From a virus, in IMG/VR virus record IMGVR_UViG_3300042868_005676, positions 1 through 64,000 of that record: a stretch of DNA of 64,000 nt, one strand, 5' to 3'. Numbering within the stretch: the first letter of the stretch is position 1; every line of letters starts with the position of its first letter. Positions 1,804 to 63,853 of this stretch are shown in pieces. The notes under the pieces were generated by a model, which worked only from the letters and a program-made list of their open reading frames with translations, was not told where the DNA came from and did not search any database. The position numbers and the translations under genes were made by a program.

Positions 1804-3987
1804 TTAATAAGCAACTTCTACAAGACTTACTTTACTTACTACTCTGCAAGTAATAGATCCTCCTCCTGCAAACGCTGGTGCTTGAAATTGTATTTGTAAT
1901 TGTTGTGAGGCCCCAGCACTGAAATTCATAATTGCTGTTGCCATAGATGTATCATATATCTGCTCTCTAGATCCTAGGGCAACCAAACTACTTGTTCCAC
2001 CTACTCTTTTAAAACTCATCGTTGCCTTTTCCTCGTATGTATCACCTACACTTACACCCGTTGCAGTTCCAGTTATTGCCGTAACTACTGCGATAGTGTC
2101 AATGGTGACGTTCCATGCTCGGTTGTTTCCGTTTGGAATGATTAAGTTGGTTGTTCCTGTTCCATCGAGTGAAAGAACGGTGATCGCTGAAGTGAGAAGA
2201 GATGCTGATTTGAATGGAACTAATACAGAACTTTGTTTTTCGCCTTGATCTGCTCCATTTGTTTCTCCTGATTGAGAAAATTGACCTTGTAAATATGTAA
2301 ATGCTCCATTCCCAATCCCAATGCTTGCATATGATTGAACTTTATTATACCTTCCAATTGCTCCAGACATATCATTGCTAATATTGTTTTGATAACCAAA
2401 AGCACTCGAACGCTGACCTGATACAGTGTTTTGTTGTCCAAAAGCAGTAGAAGCATTATTGCCACTTACAGTATTACCTTGACCACCAATTACACTCCAT
2501 TGCCCGCTTGCCGTATTACTCTGACCCCCCACAACAGTAGCATGAGTGTTTGTTGATGCTGTGTTGGATTGACCGCCTGAGATGGTGCTAAAAGCAGATG
2601 AAGCTGTATTTGTTAAACCCAAAGCAACTGATGCTCTTGCTGATGCGCTATTTTGATACCCAGCAGAAAAACCATCCTCAGCGGAAGTGTTATTAGTACC
2701 TAAACAAATTCCACCGTTTGCAGTTGTTGAGTTATTTTCTCCAGCAGCAAAAGAACGTGAACCTGCTATTGTATTCAAATATCCTATAGCCCCAGCATTA
2801 TTACCAGTTACTTTGTTACTTTGTCCAACACCAAATGAATTTGTACCACTAACAACTTTATCTGCAAGACTTCTTTGTTGTTGCAAATCAACACTATAAG
2901 CCCCTCTCGCATTTCCCCCCGTTGCCGTTCCATCAGGCACGCTTGCAATGATTCCCCCCGTTCCGTTTGGTTTTAATACTATCGAAGTGTTGGTATCTTG
3001 AACCTCTACAACTGCAACGCTTTGAGTTGTAACGCTTGTATCTTTTCCGATTCCTATTCTACGACTATTTAAGAATAATACACTCGCATTCCCTAAATAA
3101 TCTGTAACCGATTGAAATGTAGTTGAGATTGCAGCTGCCACCTTGAGCATTCCATTAGACAGAACACTAGATATCTGTTTATTTTTCCAAAGAGAAGTTG
3201 AACTTTCATAAACCAATAAATCATTGTTAGTCTCAGAAGTTACAAGAACTCCGTGTAATTCGTTTAACTCATAGCCGTTTTGAATAACGATAACCAAACG
3301 ACCTTGTGTTGGGTGAGCCCTAGCAATATACCCGATAAAAACTGCATGATTGGGTTCAGCAGGAATTGTGCTTGTCATTCCTCCAGCTGTAGCGGCAGAT
3401 AACCAAACAGCATCTCCAGCCGTAAAAGCCGAAGTGTTTAAGTCATGAAGAGTTCCATTTACTGCAATATAACCATCTGAATTATTATTAATATTCGCTA
3501 CAACTATACCTATGGTTTTAGAGGAAGTAGCCTCGGTATGTGCTTGAGACAAGAGAGCATTAGGTCTATTACCTGTTGCTCCACTTAAATAGACTACTTG
3601 TCCTTTGGTCAAGGTAGCGCCAGTAGAGTTTCTTACTATAATTTGAGTGGTCTCAGCACTATCTACTACTCCGTCATTATCAACATCATACGTGCTTTTG
3701 AGCATATCCCCACCGCCACCAGCAGCAGGGGTTTGATTCTCCCATTGTAAAGTGGTAGAGTTGTAAGCTAAAACTTGAGCATTAGCAGGTGCACTTATTG
3801 TTACGTCAGATAAACTATCTAGATTTGTTACGTTACTCGTACCAATAACTAAAGATTCTAATTCAACTACAATTCTGCGAATTCTGGTCTCTTGGTCCTT
3901 ATAGTCTTGAACACGAGTTGTCTCATATAGCTTTTTAAGATATATCGCTTGTTTAAGTAACTCTTGTTTTGTGACTTCTAAGGACAT
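1804..3987 (-). CDS. Tail fibre with YadA-head-like repeats and shared C-terminal domain
   Basis: This 727-residue virion protein has an N-terminal region with a short helical start, then a beta-rich segment (about residues 90-240). Residues about 375-560 carry many short imperfect repeats of the type GGQSNTASG and GYQNSAS, resembling the left-handed beta-roll of trimeric YadA-type heads. The last ~140 residues, from LSLDGTGTTNLIIP to LVEVAY, form a domain also present in the proteins at 60761-61975 and 61981-63441. The protein is probably a trimeric adhesin-like fibre. It overlaps the stop of the upstream gene by 1 nt, in one operon. The copy at 60761 shares a 47-bp identical DNA stretch with this gene. 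Confidence 0.8.
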   Translation of the reverse strand: MSLEVTKQELLKQAIYLKKLYETTRVQDYKDQETRIRRIVVELESLVIGTSNVTNLDSLSDVTISAPANAQVLAYNSTTLQWENQTPAAGGGGDMLKSTYDVDNDGVVDSAETTQIIVRNSTGATLTKGQVVYLSGATGNRPNALLSQAHTEATSSKTIGIVVANINNNSDGYIAVNGTLHDLNTSAFTAGDAVWLSAATAGGMTSTIPAEPNHAVFIGYIARAHPTQGRLVIVIQNGYELNELHGVLVTSETNNDLLVYESSTSLWKNKQISSVLSNGMLKVAAAISTTFQSVTDYLGNASVLFLNSRRIGIGKDTSVTTQSVAVVEVQDTNTSIVLKPNGTGGIIASVPDGTATGGNARGAYSVDLQQQRSLADKVVSGTNSFGVGQSNKVTGNNAGAIGYLNTIAGSRSFAAGENNSTTANGGICLGTNNTSAEDGFSAGYQNSASARASVALGLTNTASSAFSTISGGQSNTASTNTHATVVGGQSNTASGQWSVIGGQGNTVSGNNASTAFGQQNTVSGQRSSAFGYQNNISNDMSGAIGRYNKVQSYASIGIGNGAFTYLQGQFSQSGETNGADQGEKQSSVLVPFKSASLLTSAITVLSLDGTGTTNLIIPNGNNRAWNVTIDTIAVVTAITGTATGVSVGDTYEEKATMSFKRVGGTSSLVALGSREQIYDTSMATAIMNFSAGASQQLQIQFQAPAFAGGGSITCRVVSKVSLVEVAY

Positions 3988-4331
3988 TACTTTGCTAAAA
4001 TTTGCGTTTGGGTTTGATTAATTTTGAACAATACTCCACCATCAATTCTCTTTACTTCTTTTCCGTTTTCGTAAATAATAATTGTAGGTAAACTTTTTAT
4101 GTTCATTTTATTTTTCAACTCTGGATATTTATCCATCCCCAAATAAAAATATTTAGCTTGTGGATTTAATACCCACTTGAATTCGTTTAGTTTATTCCAA
4201 TCGGCATTTATTTGTAATACACACTTACCGTGAGATACAAGTTGCTGTAGATTATTAGGTGTTATAATCTGAGGGGCTGGTTGGGTAAAACTGAGACCCA
4301 AAGCCAAAAATAAAATAGTTAAGTGCTTCAT
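3987..4331 (-). CDS. Exported thioredoxin-fold protein without the CxxC active site
   Basis: The 114-residue protein begins with a hydrophobic signal-like segment (residues 4-16). The rest resembles a thioredoxin fold: QINADWNKL sits where the WCxxC motif should be, followed by FYLGMDKYPEL and the cis-proline loop SLPTIIIYENGKEV, ending in RIDGG. The two redox cysteines are missing, so it cannot work as a disulfide reductase. It may be a structural or binding domain, exported or carried in the virion. It lies between a fibre gene and a small membrane protein gene and overlaps both by 1-4 nt. The fold call is from motif pattern only. Confidence 0.6.
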   Translation of the reverse strand: MKHLTILFLALGLSFTQPAPQIITPNNLQQLVSHGKCVLQINADWNKLNEFKWVLNPQAKYFYLGMDKYPELKNKMNIKSLPTIIIYENGKEVKRIDGGVLFKINQTQTQILAK

Positions 4332-4630
4332 TTTTGTTCTATACGCTCTACACGCCTTTTTAAATCTTCAATGTATTCACCATAGAGTTGTAATTTCATA
4401 TCGCTCTCTGGTCTTGACGCAGGCCAAGTTTCTTTTGCGGCAGGGTCTCCAGGATCAACTTGATAAAAGCCTTTTCCCACTTTCATGCTCTGTAGTTTCT
4501 CGTCTATTTTAGAGTCGATACTCGCATCGTAAGCATAAAAAGCACCAATCGCAGCCGCTATTATACCAATAATTATCCCTAGTGTTTTAGGAGTAATTAT
4601 CAGTTTACTTTCTTCATTTATTTCTTTCAT
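4328..4630 (-). CDS. Small single-pass membrane protein
   Basis: The 100-residue protein has a charged N-terminus, one membrane segment at about residues 17-37 (GIIIGIIAAAIGAFYAYD) and a charged soluble C-terminus ending in a short helix. It is not recognised. A small membrane protein between fibre genes could serve lysis (a holin-like role) or anchor a tail component. The single segment with a long hydrophilic tail does not decide this. It overlaps the neighbouring genes by 1-4 nt. Confidence 0.6.
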   Translation of the reverse strand: MKEINEESKLIITPKTLGIIIGIIAAAIGAFYAYDASIDSKIDEKLQSMKVGKGFYQVDPGDPAAKETWPASRPESDMKLQLYGEYIEDLKRRVERIEQK

Positions 4631-5853: not shown

Positions 5854-6237
5854 TTAGAGGAGAATTCTAAATCCATTCTGCTGTAAATAGAACGCATCTC
5901 CATCTGTTAATAAAAATCCTCCGTTGTTATAACGTAAAGCCAATTCTCTTCCTCTCGTTGTATATGAGAATGTGTATGCCTCATCATCTGAGACCGAACA
6001 GTTACCACAATTCTTAGCAAGTCTATTTGCCTTTTTAATAACCTTATCTAAATCATCAAAGCAGTTCATGTTTTCAAGAGAAAAAAGCAAAAACAAAGCC
6101 TCTTTTTCTTGAGATTCTATATTGCAACAAGGCTTATCATACTTCTGAGCAGAAATTCTTTCTGTCTCAAGAGAAATGATTACCTTTCTAAGAGCTAAAA
6201 AAGTCTTTAAAAATGAATATAGAGTATGGTACTGCAT
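5854..6237 (-). CDS. Hypothetical protein in the tail operon
   Basis: I choose the start at 6237 (MQYHTL), which overlaps the stop of the upstream gene as TAATG and gives 127 residues. The product is not recognised. It contains a cysteine pair (KPCCN) and a CGNC motif near residue 75 and is otherwise mixed helix and strand. Its position among virion genes suggests a small structural or assembly protein. Confidence 0.6.
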   Translation of the reverse strand: MQYHTLYSFLKTFLALRKVIISLETERISAQKYDKPCCNIESQEKEALFLLFSLENMNCFDDLDKVIKKANRLAKNCGNCSVSDDEAYTFSYTTRGRELALRYNNGGFLLTDGDAFYLQQNGFRILL

Positions 6238-7045: not shown

Positions 7046-10000
7046 TTAAAAATTACCATAAATTTGTCTGAGCTTATCGAACTGAGTTTCATCAAGCACA
7101 CCTCTTCTTTTCATTTCTAAAAGATTAGCCTTTTCTCTGCTTTGTTTATAATCAATCAACCAAGAGCCATCCGCTTGGTCTGATGTATTTTTATAATAAG
7201 CAAATAATTGTTCTATGTTACCCATAGCCTGTTTTTTATTTTGTTCTCCTTTATAGAATTTCTGTAAATAATTAATATTATCTATACTTTTTTGATATAC
7301 GTCTTGATGAAGATTATAAAGAATATCTCCTCGTTTTTTCAATTCATTTCTATACATATCATTAGGGAGATTATATTTCAAGAATATACCATTTGATTCT
7401 AACGTAAACTCGTTAGGTATTTCTTTAGTTAATACACTCACCAAATCTCCTTCTATAGTCATGTTAGGTTTTTGTGCTATTGTACCACCAGTTAATTCTC
7501 TATACGCTTGAGACAATTGATACATATTAGCACTTATCCCCACCGCAAATCTATATCTTTGTGTTTCACGTTTACTATCTTGCAAACCAATTCTTCTACT
7601 AGCAAAAGGATTAAATATTGTTTCTACATAAGCACCCAAAGTTCCTGGCTCAGCATTTGTAGTTCTAAACTGCAAGTCCTCTCCATAAGGTCCTATTTTT
7701 GCTTTATAGAATTGATTTTTGGCAATAAAACTAACGTTTCTGTTTAGCTTTTGAATCATTCTTACTCCGACTTCTCCGAATACATCACCTAAAATGTTTA
7801 AATCTTCTGTTCTTAAATTTACTTGATTTAAAGATTGTACAGTTTCTGCGTTTGCTTTACTGATAACCGAAAACAATCCTGGAGATGTAAAAGATAAAGC
7901 CGTTGCTGATGTAGATGCAAGAAATTGATTAACACTTGCTTCGTCTCCCTCAGAAAATAATTGTCCAACACGAGCTATGCCTTGCAACATTGGTAATTGT
8001 TGAACACCTGCGTATAAAAATTGTCCTGTTACCAAAGCAAATAAATTACTTTTTATTAAATCAGGAGTAAGTTTATTTCTGTTTTCAACCGTTATCTTTT
8101 CATATTTTCTTGCTCCACTCGCATAACTACCAAAACCATATCCGATCAAGCCCATATTTGAAAATTGTTCTACATTATCTCCGGGTATCCAAGTACCTCT
8201 TTTGATGAAAAACTCTTTTTCTTTACCGTTATACAAAGCCTTCATGTATTCCCAATGTATTGTTCTATTATAAGAACCAGATTTGAAACCTATACTAGCC
8301 AGTGCTATTTCTTCATCATCGCCAGGCAACAATGCTGGGATGAGCGCACCTGCTGCATATGCAGTTGCTGCCAAAGCAAAAACAAAAGCACTTTCTGAAA
8401 TACACGCTTGATCATAAGTCATTTGACGCTTTAGTCCGAAAAGTTGAATTCTATCCTTTTCATATTGCATCTTCTCATCCTTGTTTTTAAATTGAACTAC
8501 CTCTCCATATTTAGAATCAAACTTTTCTTTTGCCGTATTGTAATTTCTTGCGCTGTTATAATAAAAGTAACTAGCAGCTAAAGGATTTACTTTTTGGTTT
8601 GCAGCCATAACCACGTTCCAAGGAACTCTAGCAAACGGAGCAACTGTCCAAACTGTTGTATCTGCTAACTGTATTGCTTGCTTAGCCATTACTTTATTAA
8701 TCTGCGATCCTTCTCCTTCTCTTATTTCTCTAGCTTTTTGTTTTATTTTTTTTCTGAGATATCCTCTTGCAGAACCTAAACCTTGAGATGCAAGATTATC
8801 AGCTAAGAATACTCTTTTGAGACCTTCTTTTTCAAAAAAGTTTTCGTTTCCTAATGTACTTTCTATTAGAACAATTAGTTTTTGTAATGTTTTTTCATCT
8901 ACCTGAGACCCATCACTTACGAAATCACCAAAGTAACCTTTCGATAAATCTTGAGTTGTAAAATAATCTAGCATTGCACGATAAGTAGTAGCATTTGCTA
9001 ATAATTTATCACCTCCAAACGCCATTGCTCTACCGGTAAATTCTGGAATTGAACCGAAAATTCCCCAAAACATAGACCTTGCTGCTGTATATGTTTTACC
9101 ATCGACTAGTTTTAATTTACCGTCTTTTGTTTTATATAAAGCCTGATCAAAAGCATCTGCAAACTCTTCATCAGTCATCTCGGTGATTTTCTTTCCTCCT
9201 ATTTTACCCAAAAGATTAAATACAAAATCTTTAGATAATTTAACATCATCGAAGAAATTAATATTAGCCATTGAGTCCATATACTTTTCTATAAAATCGC
9301 TATTTGCTTGGTTTCCATATTTAAACATTTCCCATATTTCTTGTTTACTCTTATCCCAAGAAAATCTATAAGAATTTAAAAGTAATTGAGGATTTACGGT
9401 ATTTGTTTTGATACCTTTCATATCCCCTAAAGATTGCATACCCTTAAAGAAAACGTTATCACTAAGAATAGCTTGTTCAACGTTAGCGTATAAAGACAAG
9501 AATACAGTTTGAAATCCTAATAAAGCACGACTTCCGGCAGAAGTAACTCTGTCGTTCCAAAACTTAGGTTTCAATGCGTCTAAAAATTTAATTAACTCCT
9601 TGGAAGCATTTTCAAAATTCTTCTTATCTTTTTCATACTGATTAAAATCAACATCAGTAAAAGTTTCCTCAAAGGTCTGTAAAGACTTTTCGGTATTTTG
9701 TTTAGCTGTGTTAAAATTATCAATTAAAACTTTAACTTTTTCTTTTTGAAAAGGACTTAGTGCAACACCTCCTTTGATAATACTTTCAGAAAGCATATTG
9801 CTAAGTTTATCTGGACTTGTGAATAAGCCTCTGTTAATATATAACAATCTACCTGCAATACTTTGAATTTTAGCCAATGTTTTAATTGCACTACTTACGT
9901 CCTCATTGACCTCTTTGTTTGCAATTTTATCTCTAAGCATTTGAGCAGTTGCTAATAAACCTCCAGCCTCTAATTCGTTTGCAACGTTTTCAACATAAAC

Positions 10001-13000
10001 AATACCATCAAGTAAATTAATACCAGACATTTCTGCTTCTGTACGCAAATCAGATTCTCTTTTTACGGCCTTAGCACTTCTTTCGTCACTAGTTAAAGAG
10101 GTGAAATATTCGGAATACTCTTCTGTATTTAAAGCATTCTTAATTGTTTCTCTGTAATCCTTACCGAATAATTCATCTATTTCGCCTTGTTCTGCTATAT
10201 CTAAGTCTTCAAATGCTTTTAGAATTTGAGGATTAGAGTAGCCCTCCCCTAATAATTTTTCTCTTAGGATTTCTAAAGGAAGAATTGCGTTATTGGGTTC
10301 GGTGATAAAATTTCTTATATTTTCTTGAGATTGTATTTTTGCATCAGAAATCTTCTTTGCTACCTCTTTTGCATCTTCAGAAACCATATTGTTCCAGTCT
10401 TGCTGAGAAAATGTAACCTCTCCTAGTTTTCTAGCGATATCATCATATGTATAACCTGCTTTGAATAGATTGCTTAAAGCCTCGTTCTTTGTCTTATTAG
10501 CGGCAATATCTGCTTGGTATTGTGTTCCGATATTGTCAGGATTAAGTTGTGACTTACTTTGGAACTGAGGCCCATTTGCTGGCTCAATGCCCAAGGCAGA
10601 TTCTACACTATTAACAAGTTCGGGATTAGTATTTGTTTCTTTCGCATTAACATATGCTCTAGCAACTTGATTAGAAACAACTTGCTTTGGATTTTTAACA
10701 GAACCATCTTGATTAAAACCATAGGTTTCATATTCAAAAGGCTTAGTCCTAGGTAAATCTTTAGCGTTTCCTTCTTTGTTAATCTGTGCTACTTCTTGTT
10801 CAGTTAAAACTCTATTGACTTTTATTTCGCCAGATATAACCCAACTTCCAGTCATGTTAGAATTTGTCTTATAACTATAAGAACCACCAAAAGGTATTTG
10901 ATCTGTTATGTGTGCAGTTTTAGCAATTGGTTTGCCGTTTTTACCTATGTCTGCTCTTTCATTTGCAATTGTTTGCCAATTAACATCGTCAGCAACTTCT
11001 ACCTCTGCCCATACTTGGTCAGCTGCTCTTAGTGCAGGTGCTTTATCATTTGGATTTATTTTTGCTCCAATATGAGTAGCAACAGCCAATTCGCCTGAAT
11101 GCCAACCCGGTCTATAAGCCAAAGGACCAATCTTAGACTTAACCATAGTTTTTCCTTCTTTGGTTTGTGTCAATTCTCCTGCTTTAGCTTCACTCCATTG
11201 TCCAGTACTTACTGATTCATTTGCATTTACAAATAAAGGAAATAACTCCCCTGGGAATTCTTTTTTAACTTTAAATAACTTATATGCCTTTTTTGTTTTT
11301 GTAGGGGCTTTTATTTCGCCATTTATTAGTTTTTTAAGATTTTCTAATTCGTTATCTGAAAGTGATTTGTTTAAGTTGTCAGATACACTAGCAATTTCTT
11401 TTGCTGATGCTTGAGATTTGCTCTTGAAAGCAACTGCTCCATCTTCAATACCAAACTGCTCATTTGCTTTTTGAAAATCCTCAAAAGTTTTTATTTCTTT
11501 AGATGCGACTTTTTGTGATTTACTTTGAAATTCCTTTTGTCTTTCTGCAATCTTTTTAGCATCAAAATCAGTAATAGGCATTGCGCCCATAATTGCTCTT
11601 GCTGCTTGGTCTTTTTCTCTGAGACCGAAAGGTGTTTGATTTGCTGTAGCAGATACTGGTTTAACATCATAGAAAATTGATCTACCATCCAAGAAATTAT
11701 TGAAGAACTTCATTCCCACTTTCTCTGCTGTTATAACAAAAGGATAAGAAGGATTATAAAATTCGCTATCTTCACTGACCTTTTCTATTTTTATTGTTGA
11801 TGGGTCATAAGTCAAATAACCAACAAAATCTCCATAACCAGCATTTTCAAACAAAGAATCATTTGCATAATCCAAAACGGTCTTATCATAAGTATATCCT
11901 TTTCCTGTCGCTAAACTAGGTAAATTAAATTTTTCATGATTAGTTATATTAAAAATTTTACCGAAGTAATTCGCTCTAAATTCATAACTTACCTTATCTA
12001 CATTTTTATTTTTACCGAAACGATTCTTAAATTCTTCTGTAGAAACAAAAGGATTAAGATAAGCATTCATTTCTTCTAGTGATTCAAAATTCCCTTCGAG
12101 TTTTAAATAATCTCTAAGTGGAACTTTAGTCATAGAACTATCTAAAGGCCTATTTAAAATATCAATTATTTCTTTTTCCGAAACTCCACTCTTAATAGCA
12201 TTTGACAACTCATCGGTAAAATAATTTAACATTTTAACGTTACCCAAAACTCCTGTTTTTTGTTGAGCCCCAATTAACGAACCGTCCACTTTTCGCATCT
12301 TGTTCGCTAATTTTGTTGTAGAGTCTTCAAAAGTAGATGCCCAAAGAGCGGCTGTACCTTTATATAAACCCGTAGCAGGGTCAATTTCAATATTTCTATT
12401 TGCCCACTTTGTAAAACCAGGTCCGCCTCTTCCGTTCAACTCTACTCCAGTAGGAGATGTAACGGTACCAGCCAATTGTAAATCACCTAAGAATCCCATC
12501 ATTGTCTTTCCATCAATTTCTTCTGGATTAACAAAATCTGTATCTTCTAATTTGAAGTCTCTTTTGATTTGAGATTTGCTAGAAAGATTAGGTCCTCTGT
12601 TTGTTTTACTACTCTGAACATCTATTGTCTTCTCTTCATTAAATACCTCATAACCAGGTTCTATTTGTCTACCCTCAACATTTTCAGTTCTTATTGGGTT
12701 GTCTAACGATTGAGCAATTACTTCTTCGCTTTGGTTTTCTTCGGTAACGACTTGAGGTTCTACAAATGGTTCATAATTATCACCTCGTTTGCCTTCCGGT
12801 AGAATCATCCTTATACTTTCCCAACTATTATCTGCTCTTTGTTTTTTCGTTTCTTCTAAAGATAATTCTTTCCCATCTTCAACGGCCCTCATACCCAACT
12901 TGTAATTCAAAGCAACTGCTACATCATTACTCGCCATGCCCGACAACTCACCTTTAGTTTCGTTCAATGCTCTCTTTAAAAGTGCAGTTGCTATTCCTTT

Positions 13001-38976: not shown

Positions 38977-38988
38977 TCTGAGACCCAA
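38977..38988 (+). repeat. Intergenic copy of the interspersed TCTGAGNCCSAA motif
   Basis: TCTGAGACCCAA begins directly after the stop codon of the 57-residue gene, in a 40-bp gap, so no protein sequence explains it here. It is one of 42 copies counted by eye. Confidence 0.7.
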
Positions 38989-45512: not shown

Positions 45513-45837
45513 ACAAGACAGACGATTCGCTTTTGAAATATTCGAGACCGTCAGCAACGTAACAAATGTACCTCAAGAAGACTTCATCGAAAAGAGAAGC
45601 AGAAAAATGACCGTGGTTATTTTAAGACAGATATCAACTTATCTGCTCAAAACTTACACTAAATTATCACAAACAGAAATTGGTTTTGTGATTGGTGGTT
45701 ATGATCACTCTACCGTTATTCACTCCTTAGAGAAAGTTGAACACTGGTTGCAGACTCCTAGGCTATATAGGACTGAGACCGAAATTTTACAATCATGTTT
45801 CACTGCATTAAACGAAAAGTATGGACGTAACGAGTAA
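45484..45837 (+). CDS. Free-standing DnaA domain IV-like DNA-binding protein
   Basis: The 117-residue protein is similar to the C-terminal domain of the replication initiator DnaA. The signature GGYDHSTVIHSLEKVEHWL (residues ~76-94) corresponds to the DnaA GGRDHSTV motif that reads DnaA boxes. The preceding helix pair KLSQTEIGFVI fits its helix-turn-helix. The AAA+ ATPase domain is absent. It may bind a phage origin or compete with host DnaA for boxes. It is followed by a helicase-loader-like gene, overlapping it by 17 nt. Confidence 0.75.
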   Translation: MKRKDIVLTKQDRRFAFEIFETVSNVTNVPQEDFIEKRSRKMTVVILRQISTYLLKTYTKLSQTEIGFVIGGYDHSTVIHSLEKVEHWLQTPRLYRTETEILQSCFTALNEKYGRNE

Positions 45838-47108: not shown

Positions 47109-47499
47109 TTTTGTAAATCGTTATGATGATACCATTTCTTTTGTTCAATCTGGAGATTTTACAATTAGGATGATAGGTGGTCAATATTATCGATATGGTT
47201 ATAGCGGTAAAGAACCATTGAATCAATACAATATGGTTGATCCGAGTGGTGGTCCTTACATTGGTTCGGGCTCAGACATGGGAAGATTCCTCAAAGAATG
47301 GAAAGGTTTAATTGTCAGCCATATCACCGTGGAGTCAGTTACCAATGAAAAAGTATTACATCTATTCGAGGGAAGAATAATGAAGGGTAAAACAAATGAC
47401 GAAGAAGAACTTAGATGGTATAAAGCTGGAGATTCTTCTGGACAATTTGAAAGATACAATGACATGGAACAATTTTTAGTAGCACAGAATGACCGGTAA
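47095..47499 (+). CDS. Conserved phage protein of unknown function
   Basis: I choose ATG at 47095 (MLKFDFVNRY), giving 134 residues. The segment MVDPSGGPYIGSGSDMGRFL followed by KEWKGLIVSHI is a pattern I recall from other phages without known function. The product is soluble and beta-rich at the N-terminus. A minus-strand GGGCTCAG motif copy lies at 47268. Confidence 0.55.
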   Translation: MLKFDFVNRYDDTISFVQSGDFTIRMIGGQYYRYGYSGKEPLNQYNMVDPSGGPYIGSGSDMGRFLKEWKGLIVSHITVESVTNEKVLHLFEGRIMKGKTNDEEELRWYKAGDSSGQFERYNDMEQFLVAQNDR

Positions 47500-51938: not shown

Positions 51939-52303
51939 ACATTATTGCTCCTCCTAATAGTTTGAATCTAAAGCCTATTATGATGGCACTAAGATGGGAA
52001 ATTATAAATGGTGGCATTACTGTATGTGGAAGGCGTAATCCTCGTTATAAAAATAACGTGATTATTCCTTCCCTTAAGTATAGTTTTCATATAACTTATA
52101 TGGACGGATATATTTTACTAGGGACTAGAGTATCTAGGTGGTGTAAAATACCAGTATCTTTTATAGATGATACTATTCCAGAAGAAACAATTAATTTATT
52201 GGTTGCTTACATTGAATACAAGAAGGCAAACGGAATGAATAGTATTAACGAGTACGTTAACGCATACGAACTTTCTTCCATACTCGTTGATAACGACCAT
52301 TAA
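51887..52303 (+). CDS. Hypothetical protein after DNA polymerase
   Basis: I choose ATG at 51887 (MRETDIDDFT), giving 138 residues. A longer frame from 51668 would overlap the polymerase by 270 nt with a low-complexity basic N-terminus and is unlikely. The product is beta-rich and not recognised. Its end converges with, and overlaps by 47 nt, the end of the terminase gene on the other strand. Confidence 0.55.
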   Translation: MRETDIDDFTFADDPIIDIIAPPNSLNLKPIMMALRWEIINGGITVCGRRNPRYKNNVIIPSLKYSFHITYMDGYILLGTRVSRWCKIPVSFIDDTIPEETINLLVAYIEYKKANGMNSINEYVNAYELSSILVDNDH

Positions 52304-54092: not shown

Positions 54093-54415
54093 TATTTTCT
54101 ACTTGCTTGACGATCCAAGAAAGATACATTCTCTTCCTCTTTGTCTTCTTGTGGATAAGCCTCTAACTTTGCGAGTTTTAAACTCTTGTTGATTTTGTCT
54201 CCTGCTTGTAATAATTGAAACAAGCCCTTCTGATAAGGCTCATCTAAATCTAAGGTTTCATCCTTTACAGCAGACATCAATTGTTTTGATGCTGAGACCA
54301 AAGTCGAATAGAAATCTTTAGCAGGATCAAAGTCTTGAAGCTGAAGCCTTTGTATGGCCTCGTCTTCTTTTATCTTATTATCCTTTAGGAATTTGGAGAG
54401 TTTTTCTAAGCTCAT
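54092..54415 (-). CDS. Candidate terminase small subunit
   Basis: The 107-residue helical, charged protein lies directly upstream of the large terminase with a 1-nt overlap, the usual place of a small terminase subunit. The sequence (LSKFLKDNKIKEDEAIQRLQ) could form a helical DNA-binding start and an oligomerising middle. No family signature was recognised, so the call is from position. Confidence 0.45.
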   Translation of the reverse strand: MSLEKLSKFLKDNKIKEDEAIQRLQLQDFDPAKDFYSTLVSASKQLMSAVKDETLDLDEPYQKGLFQLLQAGDKINKSLKLAKLEAYPQEDKEEENVSFLDRQASRK

Positions 54416-54563
54416 TTATTTTCTTTTTTTGTTCTTCAATTTCTTTTTGGGTTTTGTTTGCCTCAAAAGGATTATTGATTAGTGTGTAATACTCACACCA
54501 AGAAATTAATTTCTGAAGTTCTAAAACTTCTGTTTCGATTATTTGTTTATTGCTTTTAGCCAT
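54378..54563 (-). CDS. Hypothetical helical protein
   Basis: The 61-residue protein is Lys/Glu-rich and probably one or two coiled-coil helices. It overlaps both neighbours (38 and 25 nt). It is not recognised. Confidence 0.45.
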   Translation of the reverse strand: MAKSNKQIIETEVLELQKLISWCEYYTLINNPFEANKTQKEIEEQKKKINELRKTLQIPKG

Positions 54564-54910
54564 TGTTCTAAATTGAAATTTGAAAAGTCCCCCTCTTCAA
54601 CGTTCTCTCCTAAAGACAAATAAAATCTCACTATATTTCCTAGTGCCAATAACTGTGCTGTACTCGCAGTATTCTTAAATTCATATTCATTATTCAATCC
54701 TCCTATTAACGCTAGGTGAATCTCATTACCTGGACAATAATTTAGCGTATGTAAATAACCATCATGTGTAATACAATGTGTAATAATCGGTTCTCTTTCA
54801 AGACCGCCTATGTGGTATCTATCATTAGATAATTTAGATGCTGCCCTCTCGTGTTTTCTTATATCTGAGGCCAACAAATTTATCTTGCTGTATGTCCAGT
54901 AGATTTTCAT
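54539..54910 (-). CDS. Hypothetical protein
   Basis: The 123-residue soluble protein is not recognised. It has several His residues in HCITHDGYLHTLNYCPGNE. It overlaps the next gene's end by 4 nt. Confidence 0.5.
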   Translation of the reverse strand: MKIYWTYSKINLLASDIRKHERAASKLSNDRYHIGGLEREPIITHCITHDGYLHTLNYCPGNEIHLALIGGLNNEYEFKNTASTAQLLALGNIVRFYLSLGENVEEGDFSNFNLEQWLKAINK

Positions 54911-55200: not shown

Positions 55201-55640
55201 ATTGCGAAATCTTTTGAGGTCACAAATATACACAAATCTTTTGGAACACGAAAAAATTTATCCACACCTTTTCTTTCTTGAGTATAAATGCGTATAGTTT
55301 CTTTAAATCCTTCGTTAAAAATAACATCTGATTTGCAGAAAATAGCTGCTTGGGTCTCAGAACATATGATCACATACCAAAATGAATTATCTTTCCACTT
55401 GGCTTTTCTGCTGAGGAACGATACAGAATCAAAAGGAAAGTCTTCTTTACAAGTCCATGGCCTTTTAGATTTCATCTCCACCTCCCAAAAGTATTTCTTA
55501 TCGTCTTTTTCCGAAAAGAAATCTATACCATAAACGTCACAATTCTCCAAAATATTGTGACCATTTGAAACTAAAAAAGCCTTAAGTAATTCCTTACCTT
55601 TGGCATCATTACGATTAAAACTTTCTTGATTAAACTTCAT
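55197..55640 (-). CDS. PD-(D/E)XK nuclease-like protein
   Basis: The 147-residue protein has NCDVYGIDFFSEKDDKKYFW followed by EVEMKSKRPW. The Asp in GIDFF and the ExK in VEMK fit the catalytic core of PD-(D/E)XK nucleases such as Hjc or restriction-type enzymes. It may process recombination intermediates or degrade host DNA. A minus-strand motif copy at 55353 lies inside the gene. The call rests on the core motif only. Confidence 0.6.
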   Translation of the reverse strand: MKFNQESFNRNDAKGKELLKAFLVSNGHNILENCDVYGIDFFSEKDDKKYFWEVEMKSKRPWTCKEDFPFDSVSFLSRKAKWKDNSFWYVIICSETQAAIFCKSDVIFNEGFKETIRIYTQERKGVDKFFRVPKDLCIFVTSKDFAI

Positions 55641-57015: not shown

Positions 57016-57240
57016 CTAATCAAACTTAAGACCATGTTCGGTCATTATCTCATGGAGCTTATCTCTTGTGTCTATTAGTGCTTGATAAGTATCTCCTGAT
57101 ATTGTGTCTGGGGCGTACTTAGTCTGAGACCGAAGGTGTTGGTCTAACTCCCACATACAGAGTGACCACCTGCTACCATTTACAGCAAGATCAAATTCCA
57201 TTTGATCCTCTGGCAGATTAAATTCTAAGACAGCTTTCAT
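57016..57240 (-). CDS. Conserved phage protein of unknown function
   Basis: I choose ATG at 57240 (MKAVLEFNLP), giving 74 residues; the upstream ATG at 57249 would overlap the tRNA-like gene. MKAVLEFNLPEDQMEFDLAV, then SQTKYAPD is a pattern I remember from many phages. The function is unknown. A CTGAGACCGAA copy lies at 57124. Confidence 0.6.
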   Translation of the reverse strand: MKAVLEFNLPEDQMEFDLAVNGSRWSLCMWELDQHLRSQTKYAPDTISGDTYQALIDTRDKLHEIMTEHGLKFD

Positions 57241-57710: not shown

Positions 57711-59567
57711 TTAAATTATTTCACAAGCACCGCCAGCACAAGCTGATTCGCCCATAAGATTAGTATTGTCACTAATTTCGATAACTTTTGTGACATCAAT
57801 CTGATGAATGTTTTTAGACATCTCATCGTACTCTTCCTTCGTAATTGTTTCAAATGGAGTCTGTGGATAAGAACCTAAGTTTTCAGGCAAGAAGGATAAG
57901 CCATTGTAATGATTTTGATTTTCCCACAACCATTCTCCTACCATTGCCCACTCGTTCTTCTTAACAGTAACTGTTGCTGAAACGTTATGTGTATTGTCTC
58001 CATAGATATGACCAGGCTTAATCCATTTCTCGTGAATAAGTTTAACACGCTCAAGGAATTCAATAGCACTTTCCAAACTCCTAGTAATAGCCCCCTTGGG
58101 CGCAGCTACCGGAATACTTACTACCGAGTTGATAGTGGGTTGGTATACGCAATCCTCAAGAAGTTCTGGATGATGGATTGATAAGTAAGTATAAATGGCT
58201 TCGTTCTTACCAATTCGCATTCTGCGAACATAATACTCATCATGCCAAGCGTGTACACCAGACGAAGTACCTAGAACCAAAGATGAAGTTCCGCTAGGTT
58301 TAACAGTAGTGATACGAGCAGCAGTATTAATTCCAATAGTAGCAGCAGTAAATGAATTTACTCTAATTGTAGCCTCAGCAGCCTCGGCCATATCTAAATC
58401 AAAAATCTTACCACTTGCAATACCAGTCATACCAACACCTAATAGTGCCTCACGTTCTGTTACTTCTTTCCAGATAGGTCTCAGATAATGAAAGTCTGTA
58501 TAAGATGCCTGCAGTGTACCAATGAATGCAGCAGTCTCAGCCCTCGCTTCAAAATCAAATTGGTCTCTGATATCTGAAGCATTGATTTCCACTAAGTTAC
58601 AAAACTGGTGTGAATTCAAACTGATTTCTGCGCAAGGATTTGTTCCTAACTCTAAATCGTTTGTAAAGAAGAAACCTGGTTCTCCGGCATTACTATCTTC
58701 AACTTTTTTCCATAGATTCAAAAACAATTGCTTATCTACAGATCCACGCTTTAATTTTACACTGTTGTTAGCTCTTCCTCTTTGAGGATTAAGATCATAC
58801 CACTCTCCAGACTTACAAGTCAACATTTCCTCATCATCTTCATCAAAGAGAGCAATCATTGCTGATCTACGAATTCCTCCACTTAACACAGCGTTAGCAA
58901 TGTGACATAGGATATCGTGACACTCCAAAGAAGTCAATTGTTGTCCGTCTTGTTTGCGTTCAAGAACAGCCTCGATGTGTGCTAAGCAAATCTTTAATGG
59001 CTCTGGTCCTGGTGCTACTCCACCACTTGTAATTAGTCTTTCACCCTTCGCTCTAATAGCACGGTAATCAAAGTTTGGTTTCCATGTGCTGAGACCCAAA
59101 TAAGACTTCATTAATACTTTTATGGCATCAGCCCATCCCTCAATATTGTCTGGAATTAAATACCTTCTGTGTTTTTTAGAACGAGAAATAGCAGGTAGTT
59201 TGCTTATGTGGTTTTTGCTGACACTATAGCCGACACCCGTCCCAGACAATAACAAAAACATTGTTTCATTGAATGCCCTATAATCATCAATATGTAGATA
59301 GCTACAATTAAATAAACGAGCATTGTTAACCTCAATTGGCTTACCACCGAACTGAAGCGAACGCATAGAAGGCAATACTTTTTTTTCATAGACTAGTTCG
59401 TAGTTTGTTCTGATTAATTTTTCTAACTGAGGAAACTTACGAATATGCATTTCCATATTACGGGTCACAATTTCTTCCCAGGTCTCTCTTCTTTGTTTAC
59501 CATTAATGTATTTAGCGTATTTGCTCCATACAACAGTTGAGGATAAAATTTCGTGATTTAATTCCAT
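57711..59567 (-). CDS. nrdJ: Class II (adenosylcobalamin-dependent) ribonucleotide reductase
   Basis: The 618-residue protein is a monomeric vitamin-B12-dependent ribonucleotide reductase by its motifs. These are LSGTGVGYSV near residue 107, NPCAEISLNS near 309 with an active-site Cys, KPSGTSSLVLGTSSG near 425, and a C-terminal redox pair in SACAGGACEII. It makes deoxyribonucleotides for phage replication without oxygen or an R2 subunit. It depends on host cobalamin. The MazG-like gene upstream (2-nt gap) is a partner in nucleotide management. No B12 riboswitch was seen. Confidence 0.85.
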   Translation of the reverse strand: MELNHEILSSTVVWSKYAKYINGKQRRETWEEIVTRNMEMHIRKFPQLEKLIRTNYELVYEKKVLPSMRSLQFGGKPIEVNNARLFNCSYLHIDDYRAFNETMFLLLSGTGVGYSVSKNHISKLPAISRSKKHRRYLIPDNIEGWADAIKVLMKSYLGLSTWKPNFDYRAIRAKGERLITSGGVAPGPEPLKICLAHIEAVLERKQDGQQLTSLECHDILCHIANAVLSGGIRRSAMIALFDEDDEEMLTCKSGEWYDLNPQRGRANNSVKLKRGSVDKQLFLNLWKKVEDSNAGEPGFFFTNDLELGTNPCAEISLNSHQFCNLVEINASDIRDQFDFEARAETAAFIGTLQASYTDFHYLRPIWKEVTEREALLGVGMTGIASGKIFDLDMAEAAEATIRVNSFTAATIGINTAARITTVKPSGTSSLVLGTSSGVHAWHDEYYVRRMRIGKNEAIYTYLSIHHPELLEDCVYQPTINSVVSIPVAAPKGAITRSLESAIEFLERVKLIHEKWIKPGHIYGDNTHNVSATVTVKKNEWAMVGEWLWENQNHYNGLSFLPENLGSYPQTPFETITKEEYDEMSKNIHQIDVTKVIEISDNTNLMGESACAGGACEII

Positions 59568-59569: not shown

Positions 59570-59968
59570 TTAAAATGCTTTTCCGTGTTTATAACCTCTC
59601 ATTGAATTATACTTCATTTTCAATTCGATGTGCTGTTCAAGGTTAATATTTAAACCGCCACATAAATCAAACAGTCTGATTGCAACATCTGCAATCTCAT
59701 CTTCAAAAGAAGACTTGATATTCTTTTCGAATACCGTTTTCCAATCTTCTGCATCAAATTTGAATTCCTCATCATGCTGTAACAGAGCTAAGTCTTGTTG
59801 CAAATGAGTTGCAATTGTCTTATCTGCATAATGATTTTTACGGAGTGCCTCTTGGGCCTCAGCGAGTTCGCTCACAATTAACATTAACAATTCCGAAAGA
59901 TTTCTTTCGTTTTCCCAGAAGCCTTTTTCTTTGGCTGTGCTGTGTGCTTTTTCTATTAAATTTCTCAT
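59570..59968 (-). CDS. MazG-like nucleotide pyrophosphohydrolase
   Basis: I choose ATG at 59968 (MRNLIEKAHS), giving 132 residues, which places the promoter box and a motif copy in the upstream gap. SELAEAQEALRK and FEDEIADVAIRLFDLCG give the ExxE...ExxD metal-binding set of MazG-like all-alpha NTP hydrolases. It may clean nucleotide pools or lower (p)ppGpp signalling in the host. It lies next to the ribonucleotide reductase. Confidence 0.75.
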   Translation of the reverse strand: MRNLIEKAHSTAKEKGFWENERNLSELLMLIVSELAEAQEALRKNHYADKTIATHLQQDLALLQHDEEFKFDAEDWKTVFEKNIKSSFEDEIADVAIRLFDLCGGLNINLEQHIELKMKYNSMRGYKHGKAF

Positions 59969-59976
59969 AGGGGCTA

Positions 59977-59984
59977 CAAATATA
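59977..59984 (-). promoter_or_regulatory. TATATTTG promoter box before the MazG-like gene
   Basis: The minus strand reads GGGTCTCAGAT-TATATTTG-TAGCCCCT-ATG. The interspersed motif sits directly upstream of the box. Confidence 0.55.
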
Positions 59985-59985
59985 A

Positions 59986-59995
59986 TCTGAGACCC
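59986..59995 (+). repeat. Intergenic copy of the interspersed TCTGAGNCC motif
   Basis: TCTGAGACCC lies in the 49-bp gap between MazG-like and basic-protein genes, next to a promoter box. No coding constraint explains it with the chosen starts. Confidence 0.65.
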
Positions 59996-60017
59996 ATCGA
60001 AAAAACAAATAAAGTTT

Positions 60018-60293
60018 TTATTTTTTTGTTGTTTTACCATTATGACCATTTCTTGAGCGATTTTTAGATCTGTTCTCAAGTGTCATTTTACCAGACTTGG
60101 TATGGCTTAAATCTTTTCCAGCAGCATAACGCTTGCCGTATATGCCTCGCTTCTTTGCTTCTCCATTTAGTTCTGCTCTGTATTTTTTACGGGCAGGAGA
60201 AGACTGGTACGCTTTTTCTTTGGAATAGTCACGTCCTGTAGCCTTGTTAGACCCAGGACGTTTACTTTTCCCTATAATTTTGTTTTTAGGCAT
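60018..60293 (-). CDS. Very basic phage protein
   Basis: The 91-residue protein is rich in Lys, Arg and Gly (RKKYRAELNGEAKKRGIYGK, then DLSHTKSGKMTLENRSKNRS). I remember this ending from small basic proteins of many phages. It probably binds nucleic acid and may be packaged in the virion. It lies between the small basic gene at 60296 and the MazG-like gene. Confidence 0.6.
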   Translation of the reverse strand: MPKNKIIGKSKRPGSNKATGRDYSKEKAYQSSPARKKYRAELNGEAKKRGIYGKRYAAGKDLSHTKSGKMTLENRSKNRSRNGHNGKTTKK

Positions 60294-60760: not shown

Positions 60761-61975
60761 TTAATATGCTACTTCTACTAAAGCAACCTTTGAAACTATT
60801 CTGAATGTCACAGAACCACCACCGCTAAACAATGGAGCATTGAATACTATTTCTAGTTGTTGACTAGCACCGCTATTTATATCAATAGCACACGTTGCCA
60901 TAGATGTATCATTTTTAATACTAGTGGTATCTATAGATCCTACAATAGAAGATGTACCCCCTATGCGTTTAAACAATAAACAATCTTTCTGCATATAGCA
61001 GTCTCCCACAGTCACACCCGTTGCAGTTCCCGTAATTGCAGTTACTACTGCGATAGTGTCAATTTGAACATTCCATGCTCGGTTGTTGCCTGAAGGAATA
61101 ATTAAGTTTGTTACACCTGTTCCATCTAAAGATAAAACTGTTGTTCCTCCCGTTGTTAAAGATGCTGAACGCATAGGAACTAAATTCGATAATTGTGCCT
61201 CGCCATTACCTACAAAACCTCCATTTGTAGAAAAAGTTTGCATTCCTTGTAAATATGCTATAGCTCCTAATCCAGAAGCATTAGAATATTTAGCACTTGC
61301 AGTATTTTGATAACCAATAGAAACACCAGATTCTGCGTTTGCAGTACAAGACCTTCCTATTGCTACACTTCCAATTCCAGTTGCATTATTATTGCCACCT
61401 AAAGAAACTGTAGAAGTGTTTGATGCTACACTAGCAGCACCACCAGCAATTGAACGCTGCCCACTTGCCGTATTATTCTGCCCACCAACAACAGTTGCAT
61501 GAGTGTTTGTTGATGCTGTGTTGGATTGACCGCCTGAGATGGTTGAGCCAAAAGAACTTGCATTATTTCCATAACCACCACCTATACTAGAAGAATCTGC
61601 AGTAGCATTATTATCATAACCACCAGCAACAGTAGAATGATCTAATGTAGCATCATTTCTATATCCACCACCAACAGTACTATAATTACTAGATGATGTA
61701 TTAGAAAATCCTCCACCTATAGTACTATATACCCCGCTTGCAACTTGAGTATTGATTTGACGATTTCTTTGAAAATCTACACTATATGTTCCTCTCAAAT
61801 TTCCACCTGTAACAGTGCCATCGGGAATTTGAGCCACTAATGCACCAGTACCATTTGGAGCTATGACTAAACTTGAGTTAGTTGAATCCGCTTGTATAAC
61901 AGTTGCTGTCTGCGTTGTTACCGCAGGATCAGATGTTAATTTTAATCTTGAAAATAATTTTGTAAATGCTCCCAT
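60761..61975 (-). CDS. Tail fibre with YadA-head-like repeats
   Basis: The 404-residue protein has a short N-terminus, then residues ~75-245 of tandem GGG-Y-N-ATxDxST and GGQSNTASTNT type repeats, a YadA-head-like beta-roll. The last ~140 residues are the shared LSLDGTGVTNLIIP...LVEVAY domain. It is closely related to 1804-3987: bases 61497-61543 are identical to 2540-2586 (47 bp). It probably forms a receptor-binding trimer. The N-terminal virion-attachment region differs from the other two fibres. Confidence 0.8.
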   Translation of the reverse strand: MGAFTKLFSRLKLTSDPAVTTQTATVIQADSTNSSLVIAPNGTGALVAQIPDGTVTGGNLRGTYSVDFQRNRQINTQVASGVYSTIGGGFSNTSSSNYSTVGGGYRNDATLDHSTVAGGYDNNATADSSSIGGGYGNNASSFGSTISGGQSNTASTNTHATVVGGQNNTASGQRSIAGGAASVASNTSTVSLGGNNNATGIGSVAIGRSCTANAESGVSIGYQNTASAKYSNASGLGAIAYLQGMQTFSTNGGFVGNGEAQLSNLVPMRSASLTTGGTTVLSLDGTGVTNLIIPSGNNRAWNVQIDTIAVVTAITGTATGVTVGDCYMQKDCLLFKRIGGTSSIVGSIDTTSIKNDTSMATCAIDINSGASQQLEIVFNAPLFSGGGSVTFRIVSKVALVEVAY

Positions 61976-61980
61976 AATTT

Positions 61981-63441
61981 TTAGTATGCCACTTCGACTA
62001 ATGAAACTTTTGCAACTATTCGCATAGTTACACTACCTCCACCAGCAAATGTTGGGCCAGTGAATGTCATTGCTAATTGTTGAGATGCTCCTGCTGTGTA
62101 TGTCATAGAACAAGTGTCCATGATTAAACTATCTGAGGCCGATGCATCTCGTATAAAATTTCGTACAGAACTTGTACCACCAATTCTCTTGAATCCAAAT
62201 AGCGATTCTCCTGTGATTATATCTCCTACAGTTATACCTGTGGCAGTTCCCGTAATTCCAGTTACTACAGCTACCCAATCAACTGATACATTCCATGCTC
62301 TGTTTGTTGCAAGTGAATATGAAATATTGGGAATAATTAAATTTGTTACTCCAGTTCCGTCCAATGATAAAACTGTTGTTCCTCCAGTTGTTAACGTATC
62401 ATTTTTTGAAGATACCAATTGAGAAGCTTGAGAGCCACCGTTTATATTTACTCCGTTTGAAATTGCAAATTGATTGTGTAAAGTTGCCCTTGAATTTGTA
62501 TTAAAAGAAATTGATAAAGTTTCATCTGACTTACCTTCATTAAAAGCTATAGATTGAATTCCACTTGCATTGCCTTTATTAATTACCATTGAATTAGAAC
62601 CAGTTGCGCTAGAACCAGAAGTACTATTTAAAACCATAGATTGACTACCGCTTGCAGTGGCATACATACTATTTAAAACACAACTTATTCCAGCATTAGC
62701 CGTATTACCTTCTCCGCCAATAACTATAGAACGATTATTTGAGGCTATATTACCTCCCGATCCACCCATGCATAAAGAATTTGTACCTGAGGCTGTATTG
62801 CTATTTCCCCCAGCAATTGAACGCTGCCCACTTGCAGTATTGCTTGATCCGCCTATTACACTAGCGTGAGTATTAGTAGAAGTAGCATTACCTTCACCAC
62901 CTCCAATAAATCCCCTATCGCTATTGTTATTGTTATTTAATCCACCTGTTGTTACAGCATGATTCTGGAGAGCACGATTTTGTTGTCCGCCTCCTACATA
63001 ACTATAAACACCACTTGCCTTATTTGATACACCACCGCCAACTACAGAGTAGTTACCGCTAGCAACCTCGTCAGCATTATTTCTAGTCTTCTGTAAATCA
63101 ACAGAAAATAAACCCCTGCTATTACCCCCAAAGTTTGTATTGTCGGGAGCATTTCTCATCAGAGGGCCATTATTATTAGTACTTAAAATAAGTCCGTTAT
63201 CTACAACGCTAGACTGAATTAAAGCCGCAGCTTGAACCGTACTAGCAGAACTATTTTTAAGTGATAGTGTATTACCAACAAGAAGAGGGTTTGAATTTAC
63301 ATAACCATCAATCAACTCCTTGGGAGCAATCTTTTTGGTTTCTACGTCTGAAGTATCTACTACTGGTAACCAGTCTACTACAGAATCTAAGTTAGATCCC
63401 GTAAGTACATTGAGTTGTGATATTTTCTGATTGGTTGCCAT
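61981..63441 (-). CDS. Tail fibre with YadA-head-like repeats
   Basis: The 486-residue protein starts MATNQKISQLNVLTGSNLDS, related in style to the 401-residue fibre. Residues ~130-330 are Gly/Asn/Ser-rich beta-roll repeats (GGSSNTASGQRS and variants), followed by the shared C-terminal domain ending LVEVAY. It overlaps the small gene upstream by 1 nt and is followed by the next fibre after 5 nt. It is likely one of several alternative or co-assembled receptor-binding proteins. Confidence 0.8.
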   Translation of the reverse strand: MATNQKISQLNVLTGSNLDSVVDWLPVVDTSDVETKKIAPKELIDGYVNSNPLLVGNTLSLKNSSASTVQAAALIQSSVVDNGLILSTNNNGPLMRNAPDNTNFGGNSRGLFSVDLQKTRNNADEVASGNYSVVGGGVSNKASGVYSYVGGGQQNRALQNHAVTTGGLNNNNNSDRGFIGGGEGNATSTNTHASVIGGSSNTASGQRSIAGGNSNTASGTNSLCMGGSGGNIASNNRSIVIGGEGNTANAGISCVLNSMYATASGSQSMVLNSTSGSSATGSNSMVINKGNASGIQSIAFNEGKSDETLSISFNTNSRATLHNQFAISNGVNINGGSQASQLVSSKNDTLTTGGTTVLSLDGTGVTNLIIPNISYSLATNRAWNVSVDWVAVVTGITGTATGITVGDIITGESLFGFKRIGGTSSVRNFIRDASASDSLIMDTCSMTYTAGASQQLAMTFTGPTFAGGGSVTMRIVAKVSLVEVAY

Positions 63442-63569
63442 TAGTATTCTTTTAACATTTGTGCGCCAGTCTCTAATAATAAATTAAAGCCAGTCTCTAA
63501 CTGAATAGGAAAATCGAAGAATATTCTTCTAATCCTTCTGCGAGATATTGGTAATCCAAAACCAATCAT
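63441..63569 (-). CDS. 42-residue hypothetical protein
   Basis: A short frame reads MIGFGLPISRRRIRRIFFDF and ends LLETGAQMLKEY. Both its start and its stop overlap the neighbours as TAATG, so it is embedded in the operon by coupling. The repeat QLETGFN/LLETGAQ is visible. The function is unknown. Confidence 0.5.
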   Translation of the reverse strand: MIGFGLPISRRRIRRIFFDFPIQLETGFNLLLETGAQMLKEY

Positions 63570-63853
63570 TATGGATAATAAGCAATTATGCTACCAGAGT
63601 TTAATCTAATCGAAGTGAAGTATTTTTCCTTCGCAGAACTAATTAACATTCCTTGTCTAATTGTTAATCCACTGAGACCCATTGTACTAGTAATGTCAAC
63701 TCCTTTATCATCAATGATTTCTGCAACTTCACAATCAGCATTTACAACAAATGCTTGGAATGCTCCAGTTACAGCGATTGTACCAGCGATTGCTCTGCAA
63801 CCTGTTAGTCCACCTTGAAAGTCTATTGACCTAGATTCAATTATGTCTGCCAT
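63569..63853 (-). CDS. Hypothetical small virion protein
   Basis: The 94-residue protein is beta-rich with GLTGCRAIAGTIAVTGAFQA. It leads the right fibre operon, directly after a TATATTTG box. It could be a small head or tail component. No family is assigned with confidence. Confidence 0.55.
   Translation of the reverse strand: MADIIESRSIDFQGGLTGCRAIAGTIAVTGAFQAFVVNADCEVAEIIDDKGVDITSTMGLSGLTIRQGMLISSAKEKYFTSIRLNSGSIIAYYP

Follow-up and report, generated by a model that had tools for sequence, protein, structure and literature searches.

The stretch of DNA analysed here (hereafter the window) comprises the first 64,000 nucleotides of IMG/VR virus record IMGVR_UViG_3300042868_005676, which comes from an uncultured, distant crAss relative and carries a short asymmetric word, CTGAGNCC, scattered along its whole length. 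The phage is marked as crAss-related by a muzzle-like protein (20031-24602, minus strand) that matches the crAss_MUZ profile with 98.8 bits, and by a ring-like protein that matches CrAss_Ring_2 with 40.9 bits (cut-off of 27 for both). Judging from these profile matches, the phage has crAss-type structural proteins, its formal taxonomy being a separate matter. The record also encodes a portal protein, a DNA polymerase, and a ribonucleotide reductase.

The initial annotation of the window had listed 42 copies of the word (29 on the plus strand and 13 on the minus strand) and considered them far above chance expectation for DNA of about 35% guanine-cytosine (GC) content. All of these 42 coordinates are present as given, the GC content is 35.3%, and one additional minus-strand copy at 41263 brings the count to 43. 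In the whole 67,200-base record, 45 copies of CTGAGNCC (31 and 14 on the two strands) were observed versus two copies of the reversed word, whereas a second-order Markov model predicts 2.5. Under this model, CTGAGNCC/GGNCTCAG is the top-scoring one-gap 8-mer among those with at least eight copies. Shuffling of synonymous codons (300 shuffles; genes here and below are longest open reading frame (ORF) calls, with no gene finder used) gave on average 3.3 and never more than 9 copies in the record. The view that the signal lies at the DNA level and exceeds chance is hence upheld by codon-preserving nulls, and the excess holds both under such a shuffle and when the rest of the genome is included, two checks that had been proposed along with it.

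The copies in the window, all exact, fall into several sequence forms. CTGAGACC is found on the plus strand at 4291-4298, 8903-8910, 21267-21274, 24657-24664, 32039-32046 (in the portal gene), 33898-33905, 39597-39604, 45773-45780, 54292-54299, 59089-59096 (in the ribonucleotide reductase gene, nt 471), 59987-59994, and 63672-63679, and on the minus strand at 3649-3656, 37027-37034, 43029-43036, 52347-52354 (in the terminase-like gene), and 58477-58484 (also in the ribonucleotide reductase gene). CTGAGGCC occurs at 10565-10572, 14012-14019, 33376-33383, 36492-36499, 54865-54872, and 62133-62140 (plus) as well as 37455-37462 and 59855-59862 (minus), CTGAGTCC at 52739-52746 (plus, in the terminase-like gene), 41263-41270, and 42024-42031 (both minus), and CTGAGCCC at 51203-51210 (minus, in the DNA polymerase gene). 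The full motif is represented by TCTGAGACCGAA at 5988-5995, 11619-11626, 24992-24999, 57124-57131 (plus), and 43824-43831 (minus), TCTGAGTCCGAA at 13573-13580 (plus), TCTGAGGCCCAA at 18528-18535 and 50446-50453 (both plus, the latter in the DNA polymerase gene), TCTGAGCCCCAA at 19716-19723 (plus), TCTGAGACCCAA at 38978-38985 (plus), 44270-44277, and 55353-55360 (both minus), TCTGAGTCCCAA at 41951-41958 (plus), and TCTGAGCCCGAA at 47268-47275 (minus). Two copies had been described as intergenic. This is correct for 38978, whereas 59987 lies either within the MazG-like gene or a short way before it, according to where this gene starts: the ORF at 59570-60079, called from a TTG and with in-frame ATGs at 60049, 60040, and 59968, contains the site, which would be intergenic only if the ATG at 59968 is the start.

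Alignment of sites from relatives refines the motif to TCTGAG-N-CC-(C/G/a)-AA-N4-WW, in which the variable base is C>G>A and hardly ever T. The flanks noticed earlier (T before, C/G and AA after) are recovered in 982 sites of relatives, which collapse to 752 distinct contexts: T at -1 in 67%, C/G at +8 in 83%, and A at +9 and +10 in 59% and 58%, respectively. To this description we add a preference for A/T at +15/+16, which at +16 reaches 83-98% in five of six site classes and 66% in the sixth, giving a footprint near 18 bp. The excess disappears with most single substitutions in the core, while GTGAG, CCGAG, CGGAG, and others retain a 2- to 4-fold excess, and GTGAGNCCSAA is 17-fold enriched in relatives. 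GTGAG variants had indeed been pointed out in the window (48300, and 49549 on the minus strand); they exist, at 48300 on the plus strand and 49550 on the minus strand.

Enrichment in relatives, another check suggested by the initial annotation, is pronounced. Through polymerase and portal homologues we gathered 109 loci of uncultured, mostly freshwater crAss-related phages, and these together with the window's own tail (1.37 Mb) contain 972 copies of CTGAGNCC and 48 of the reversed word. This count includes overlapping loci of one contig and three loci that the alignment, selection, and retention analyses leave out, namely L002 and L055, which are the window phage, and L053, which is distant and has no site in its piece. 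In 17 whole virus records, 413 copies were found versus 17 of the reversed word. When only positions at which the protein sequence would permit CTGAGNCC synonymously are considered, 937 of 4,067 (23%) are used in relatives compared with 75 expected, i.e., 12.5 times the codon expectation, and for TCTGAGNCCS the use rises to 534 of 1,127 (47%) versus 11.7 expected (45 times). Three control words are used at 0.75, 0.94, and 0.98 of codon expectation. Chance or codon bias is therefore rejected by the Markov model, the codon shuffle, and the control words alike. Dense genomes have about one site per 1.2 to 2 kb and an 8-mer excess of 11.5-28 fold. The density is similar in coding regions (934 sites in 1.30 Mb, about 7.2 per 10 kb) and intergenic regions (52 sites in about 85-91 kb, about 6 per 10 kb), and the permitted positions on the two genome strands are used about equally (523/2310, 22.6%, and 414/1757, 23.6%). 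Use differs by gene family, the extremes being the major capsid gene (1%) and the polymerase gene (48%). The scarcity in the capsid gene (2 of 193 permitted positions) might suggest that sites block transcription, an idea we rejected since the strong codon bias of this gene explains it (own-usage expectation of 0.5). The major capsid gene (28334-29668, minus strand) has a mean codon homozygosity of 0.57 compared with 0.39-0.52 in the other families measured, which points to translational selection in a phage that has not been cultured.

The maintenance of individual sites was followed by comparing window-phage sites with relatives of less than 90% identity in which the amino acids at the site are conserved, 16 of the 42 sites being comparable in this way. 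The word is kept in 151 of 264 comparisons, versus 47% identity of control windows, and in 73 of 186 when the terminase-like and reductase genes are left out. Among the 13 sites with at least five comparisons, four are always kept (52739, 45/45; 59089, 22/22; 58477, 11/11; 37027, 7/7), 37455 nearly so (12/14), and eight are partly or wholly lost, such as 59855 (kept in 1/19), 43824 (0/11), 54292 (10/37), and 51203 (21/47). The position of 59089 is empty in the homologous reductase of four unrelated phage contigs. Many sites thus turn over while a few are firmly retained, and the overall density is preserved. Closely spaced copies are rarer than under uniform placing in six dense genomes, with 23 gaps below 300 bp versus 40.3 expected.

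Further loci gathered through alignment of the terminase include some that almost lack the word. Six large sparse genomes have 6-21 copies of CTGAGNCC versus 4-8 of the reversed word, compared with 28-46 versus 0-2 in six dense ones. Because 41 copies of TCTGAGNCCS occupy permitted positions in the sparse genomes versus 2.6 expected, remnant or weaker use of the motif persists there. In a midpoint-rooted terminase tree, a dense clade is the sister group of the main sparse clade, which itself branches within the dense ones, and L222 stands apart as a long sparse branch. When 4 sites per 10 kb is taken as the cut, the density label changes six times on the tree (at least five of them forced), partly reflecting noisy densities of short contigs. 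This topology fits an origin of the sparse clade by loss from a dense state, on a tree whose root is not fixed. A different dense word was also sought for the sparse clade in k-mer lists; the words followed up from these lists, of the CCGGGGT type, were rejected, as they lie mostly at shared homologous places.

With regard to the host, AGGAG precedes only 1.5% of 1,094 called starts in relatives, and intergenic TATNTTTG is 2.9-fold enriched. Low AGGAG together with TATNTTTG-type signals is the expression pattern of Bacteroidota, and on this basis a host from Bacteroidota is probable, at the level of phylum only. The portal protein matches 28 records only, all of them from Flavobacterium phages and about 22% identical, and tblastn of the capsid gene against 50,697 phage records gave no match. 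A search for polymerase homologues in bacterial genomes, aimed at host identification, found none. Pattern searches covered 12 genomes, 395 across the phylum, and 348, 296, and 241 in three orders, in total 1,208 distinct genomes, almost all of them from Bacteroidota (the first 12 include one from Bacillota), with pattern lengths that varied between searches. None of these 1,208 candidate genomes is dense in the motif; the comparison with the host genome that had been recommended was made on these candidates. While the phage has 27 copies of TCTGAGNCCS in 67.2 kb (about 400 per Mb), the maxima in the 395-genome search were 79 copies in 4.4 Mb and a top density of about 26 per Mb (54 in 2.1 Mb). 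G099 had the largest excess over its control (60 vs 6), but seven of ten contexts there turned out to be one repeat (contexts were taken from the forward strand only, i.e., 10 of 30 loci), and this outlier was rejected. This hairpin-like repeat, TCTGAGACCCTGAAATWAATTCARGGTGAC, occurs at L268, L274, L275, L277, L278, L279, and L294, with some copies near contig ends. Two other genomes were also discarded: G034 has 632 CTGAGNCC versus 222 reversed words (2.8-fold), yet 4 extended sites in 4.0 Mb, and G030 has 431 versus 211 (2.0-fold), yet no extended site.

In the virus collection, a scan with a 14-base form of the motif matched 108 stretches, of which 78, some from one contig, were examined. 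Several proteins of the lineage were found at 28 of these loci, isolated matches at five, and none at 45. All 20 loci with at least three TCTGAGNCCS belong to this lineage, as do 28 of the 29 with at least two, the exception being L304 (4.3 kb, GC 0.53); virus loci outside the lineage that possess a strong site hold one or two good sites. In the virus loci that were examined, a dense motif is confined to this lineage.

Candidate readers of the motif were sought by comparing gene content among the 12 large genomes mentioned above, six dense and six sparse. A RecE-like exonuclease (35115-36098, plus strand), which could itself be a reader, is present in all 12, as are a putative single-strand DNA-binding (SSB-like) protein (34229-34888, plus; C-terminus ...DDLPF recognized by eye, no family match), the polymerase, the probable large terminase (52257-54092, minus; motifs by eye, no family match), the portal, and the capsid, and a primase-helicase (48111-49850, plus) is found in 11. 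A 123-residue protein (54539-54910) and a small basic 88-residue protein (about 60021-60287) each occur in all six dense genomes and one of six sparse ones. The candidates dismissed were an HNH protein (36091-36378), a PD-(D/E)XK-like protein (so labelled by eye), and the two cytosine-5 methyltransferases of the phage, which all lack a detectable homologue (tblastn, E up to 1e-3) in one dense genome, G1226. Of the proposal that the motif is a modification site, the part involving these two enzymes is accordingly disfavoured, other methyltransferases not having been looked for in G1226. A putative helix-turn-helix protein (33540-33953, minus strand) adjoins the SSB-like gene and has diverged counterparts in other clades. 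Its predicted structure has a mean pLDDT of 88.8, and the nearest solved folds are helix-turn-helix regulators, with weak matches (E 0.37 or worse); its small neighbour has no fold match better than E 3. A T7-type primase site was judged unlikely, as the trinucleotide GTC of such sites appears in the word only when N is A.

Several other features of these genomes were recorded. A tandem C-rich element, CATACCCCCCTTTCCCCCCTTTCC, at 33007-33030, between the portal gene and 33209 and upstream of the portal, is shared with two relatives (G407 and G408); it is G-rich on the portal strand and might act as a promoter or packaging element or form a G-quadruplex. A serine recombinase of 230 aa (44820-45512, plus strand) has a homologue in 11 of the 12 large genomes and is conserved in this crAss-related lineage. 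On the minus strand, 60761-61975 and 61981-63441 encode repetitive Gly/Ser/Asn-rich proteins with similar C-termini and little match in relatives, which by eye are perhaps tail fibre or adhesin variants. Because exact terminal repeats were found in G407, G408, and G1231 (77, 87, and 69 bases, respectively) and the final bases of G000 are found again close to its own start, these four genomes may be complete.

Taken together, we suggest, with a probability of roughly 45%, that the motif is a dispersed self-signal of one crAss-related lineage, read by a phage-encoded factor. Such a factor, brought by the phage and most probably belonging to its machinery for recombination, replication, or packaging, would recognize the site on phage DNA in either orientation, and what would mainly count is that a site lies within reach, as it does at the spacing seen in dense genomes (about one per 1.2 to 2 kb). 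We infer that the reader is encoded by the phage and that its function may be to tell own from other DNA or to regulate the processing of DNA ends, as Chi does for RecBCD/AddAB. The likeliest single mechanism would be a Chi-like signal that acts on a nuclease or recombination complex of the phage, even if this is improbable when taken by itself, and replication or packaging marks share the rest. A more far-reaching and only tentative proposal is that of a virus-owned self-recognition code, consisting of a Chi/USS-like word (USS, uptake signal sequence) and a reader that both belong to the virus, by which phage DNA could be told from other DNA without base modification, one clade having lost most of the pressure. 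Several observations weigh against a self-signal of this kind. No reader was identified among the phage-gene candidates compared: the RecE-like exonuclease and other core proteins are also found in the sparse clade and their presence does not predict density, and the genes present in 6/6 dense and 0/6 sparse genomes (ribonucleotide reductase, MazG-like pyrophosphatase, and lysin) are not obvious DNA readers. Spacing is more regular than chance at 5% in two of five single genomes tested, and the full retention of some sites (45/45, 22/22, and 11/11) is not predicted by a pure density model. Nor do all measures show a neutral orientation: 605 genic sites are antisense and 329 sense in relatives, versus 35 and 37 from the codon shuffle; at permitted positions, observed over codon expectation is about 17 and 8, about twice as high for antisense; and the window phage by itself uses 34 of 162 permitted antisense positions and 10 of 77 sense ones. 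On the other hand, antisense and sense permitted positions in relatives are used at 606/2,556 (24%) and 331/1,511 (22%), which in our reading leaves little if any real preference for one orientation under strong selection. In our interpretation, the raw antisense surplus comes mostly from the larger number of permitted antisense positions (2556 vs 1511), as the sense word makes a stop codon in one frame. The strong enrichment of both orientations also disfavours a signal at the RNA level.

Other explanations account for parts of these data. The sites might bind a nucleoid-like or packaging protein of the phage that coats or condenses the genome at intervals, and genome-wide sites on both strands, few close pairs, the footprint near 18 bp, the helix-turn-helix-like protein beside the SSB-like gene, and the distribution of the small basic 88-residue protein are all in line with this; we nevertheless think it unlikely, given that the fold match of the helix-turn-helix-like protein is weak and that this protein is poorly conserved (31-48% identical to the window copy) while the motif is constant. 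Silencing of prophage transcription by repressor binding, as at the stoperators of cluster A mycobacteriophages, would explain tens of asymmetric dispersed sites (28-46 per dense genome), an antisense preference beyond the codon shuffle (605 vs 329, and 34 vs 10 in this phage), and a serine recombinase in 11/12 genomes. It is hard to reconcile with the location of 934 of 986 sites in called genes, at about the intergenic density, and, less clearly, with the minority orientation of a third of the genic sites and the about equal use of permitted positions; the one repressor candidate seen is the putative helix-turn-helix protein. We regard this reading as quite improbable. A similarly low standing is given to the suggestion that the phage carries a host Chi to survive or use host RecBCD/AddAB. 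The distribution of the motif is Chi-like, and PMC3784561 describes an over-representation of Chi in many E. coli phages that is strongest in T5-like and P1-like ones; yet 0 of the 1,208 genomes is dense, seven of the ten contexts in G099 are one repeat, and non-lineage virus loci with a strong site hold only one or two good sites. A Chi-like signal, one of the roles that the initial annotation listed without a choice, is disfavoured in its host-borrowed form by the genomes searched. Phage nickase sites are doubtful to a slightly greater degree. The localized single-strand interruptions of T5, phiKMV-like phages, and tf likewise have an asymmetric consensus that is specific to the phage and whose function is unknown (PMC3517423, with 14 sites in tf), but those are reported on one strand, whereas 14 of 45 are on the other strand here and permitted positions on the two strands are used about equally, and the HNH protein is without a detectable homologue in dense G1226. 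Finally, relatives share some positions, and the reduction of 982 sites to 752 contexts could be viewed as a trace of shared ancestry; as the explanation of the motif, a by-product of codon or amino-acid usage or of ancestry has a negligible probability, being excluded by codon shuffles and control words and by the loss of sites while density persists. An uptake signal, which would be dense in the bacterium that takes up the DNA, is also disfavoured, since the 1,208 genomes searched are not dense in the word; like host Chi and stoperators, it is disfavoured less firmly than the codon artefact or one-strand nick sites.

The dispersed words known to be under strong selection are Chi sites of hosts, uptake sequences of bacteria, or sites for repressors, and the present motif, which is dense, found on both strands, carried by one virus lineage, and not dense in the candidate hosts or unrelated viruses examined, fits none of these classes well. 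None of the titles and abstract openings listed by literature searches describes it; the papers listed for the word itself were all matched through CTGAGACC, and hence the motif is not shown to be unpublished. If the self-signal hypothesis is true, a virus could mark its own DNA by sequence alone, and the nearby sparse clade opens this question to comparison. The motif resembles Chi of RecBCD/AddAB in being a short, asymmetric, dispersed, mostly genic, and position-flexible word that is plausible as a self mark. It differs in that Chi is a host word, found on average every 5 kb in E. coli, while no searched host is dense here, and in that the median Chi excess in lambdoids is reported as 2-3 fold (PMC3784561) compared with 11.5-28 fold for the motif in dense genomes. 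Like the USS of Pasteurellaceae and the DNA uptake sequences (DUS) of Neisseria, which are asymmetric, 10-12 bp long, dense, and have many genic copies, with the reverse complement commoner than the word in reading frames (PMC2346458), the motif is a frequent, asymmetric, and largely genic word; USS and DUS reside in bacterial genomes and serve natural transformation, whereas the motif was seen only in a phage lineage. Stoperators also amount to tens of asymmetric sites per phage genome and are described in PMC9283540 and PMC6550527 as lying in promoter regions and short spaces between genes and as mostly pointing one way relative to transcription, with binding that needs more than the core consensus (PMC9283540), while the motif is mostly genic and both of its orientations are common. 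The localized interruption sites of T5, phiKMV-like phages, and tf share with the motif a phage-lineage-specific asymmetric consensus of unknown function, but are reported on one strand only (PMC3517423), as opposed to the 31 and 14 copies of the motif on the two strands of this phage.

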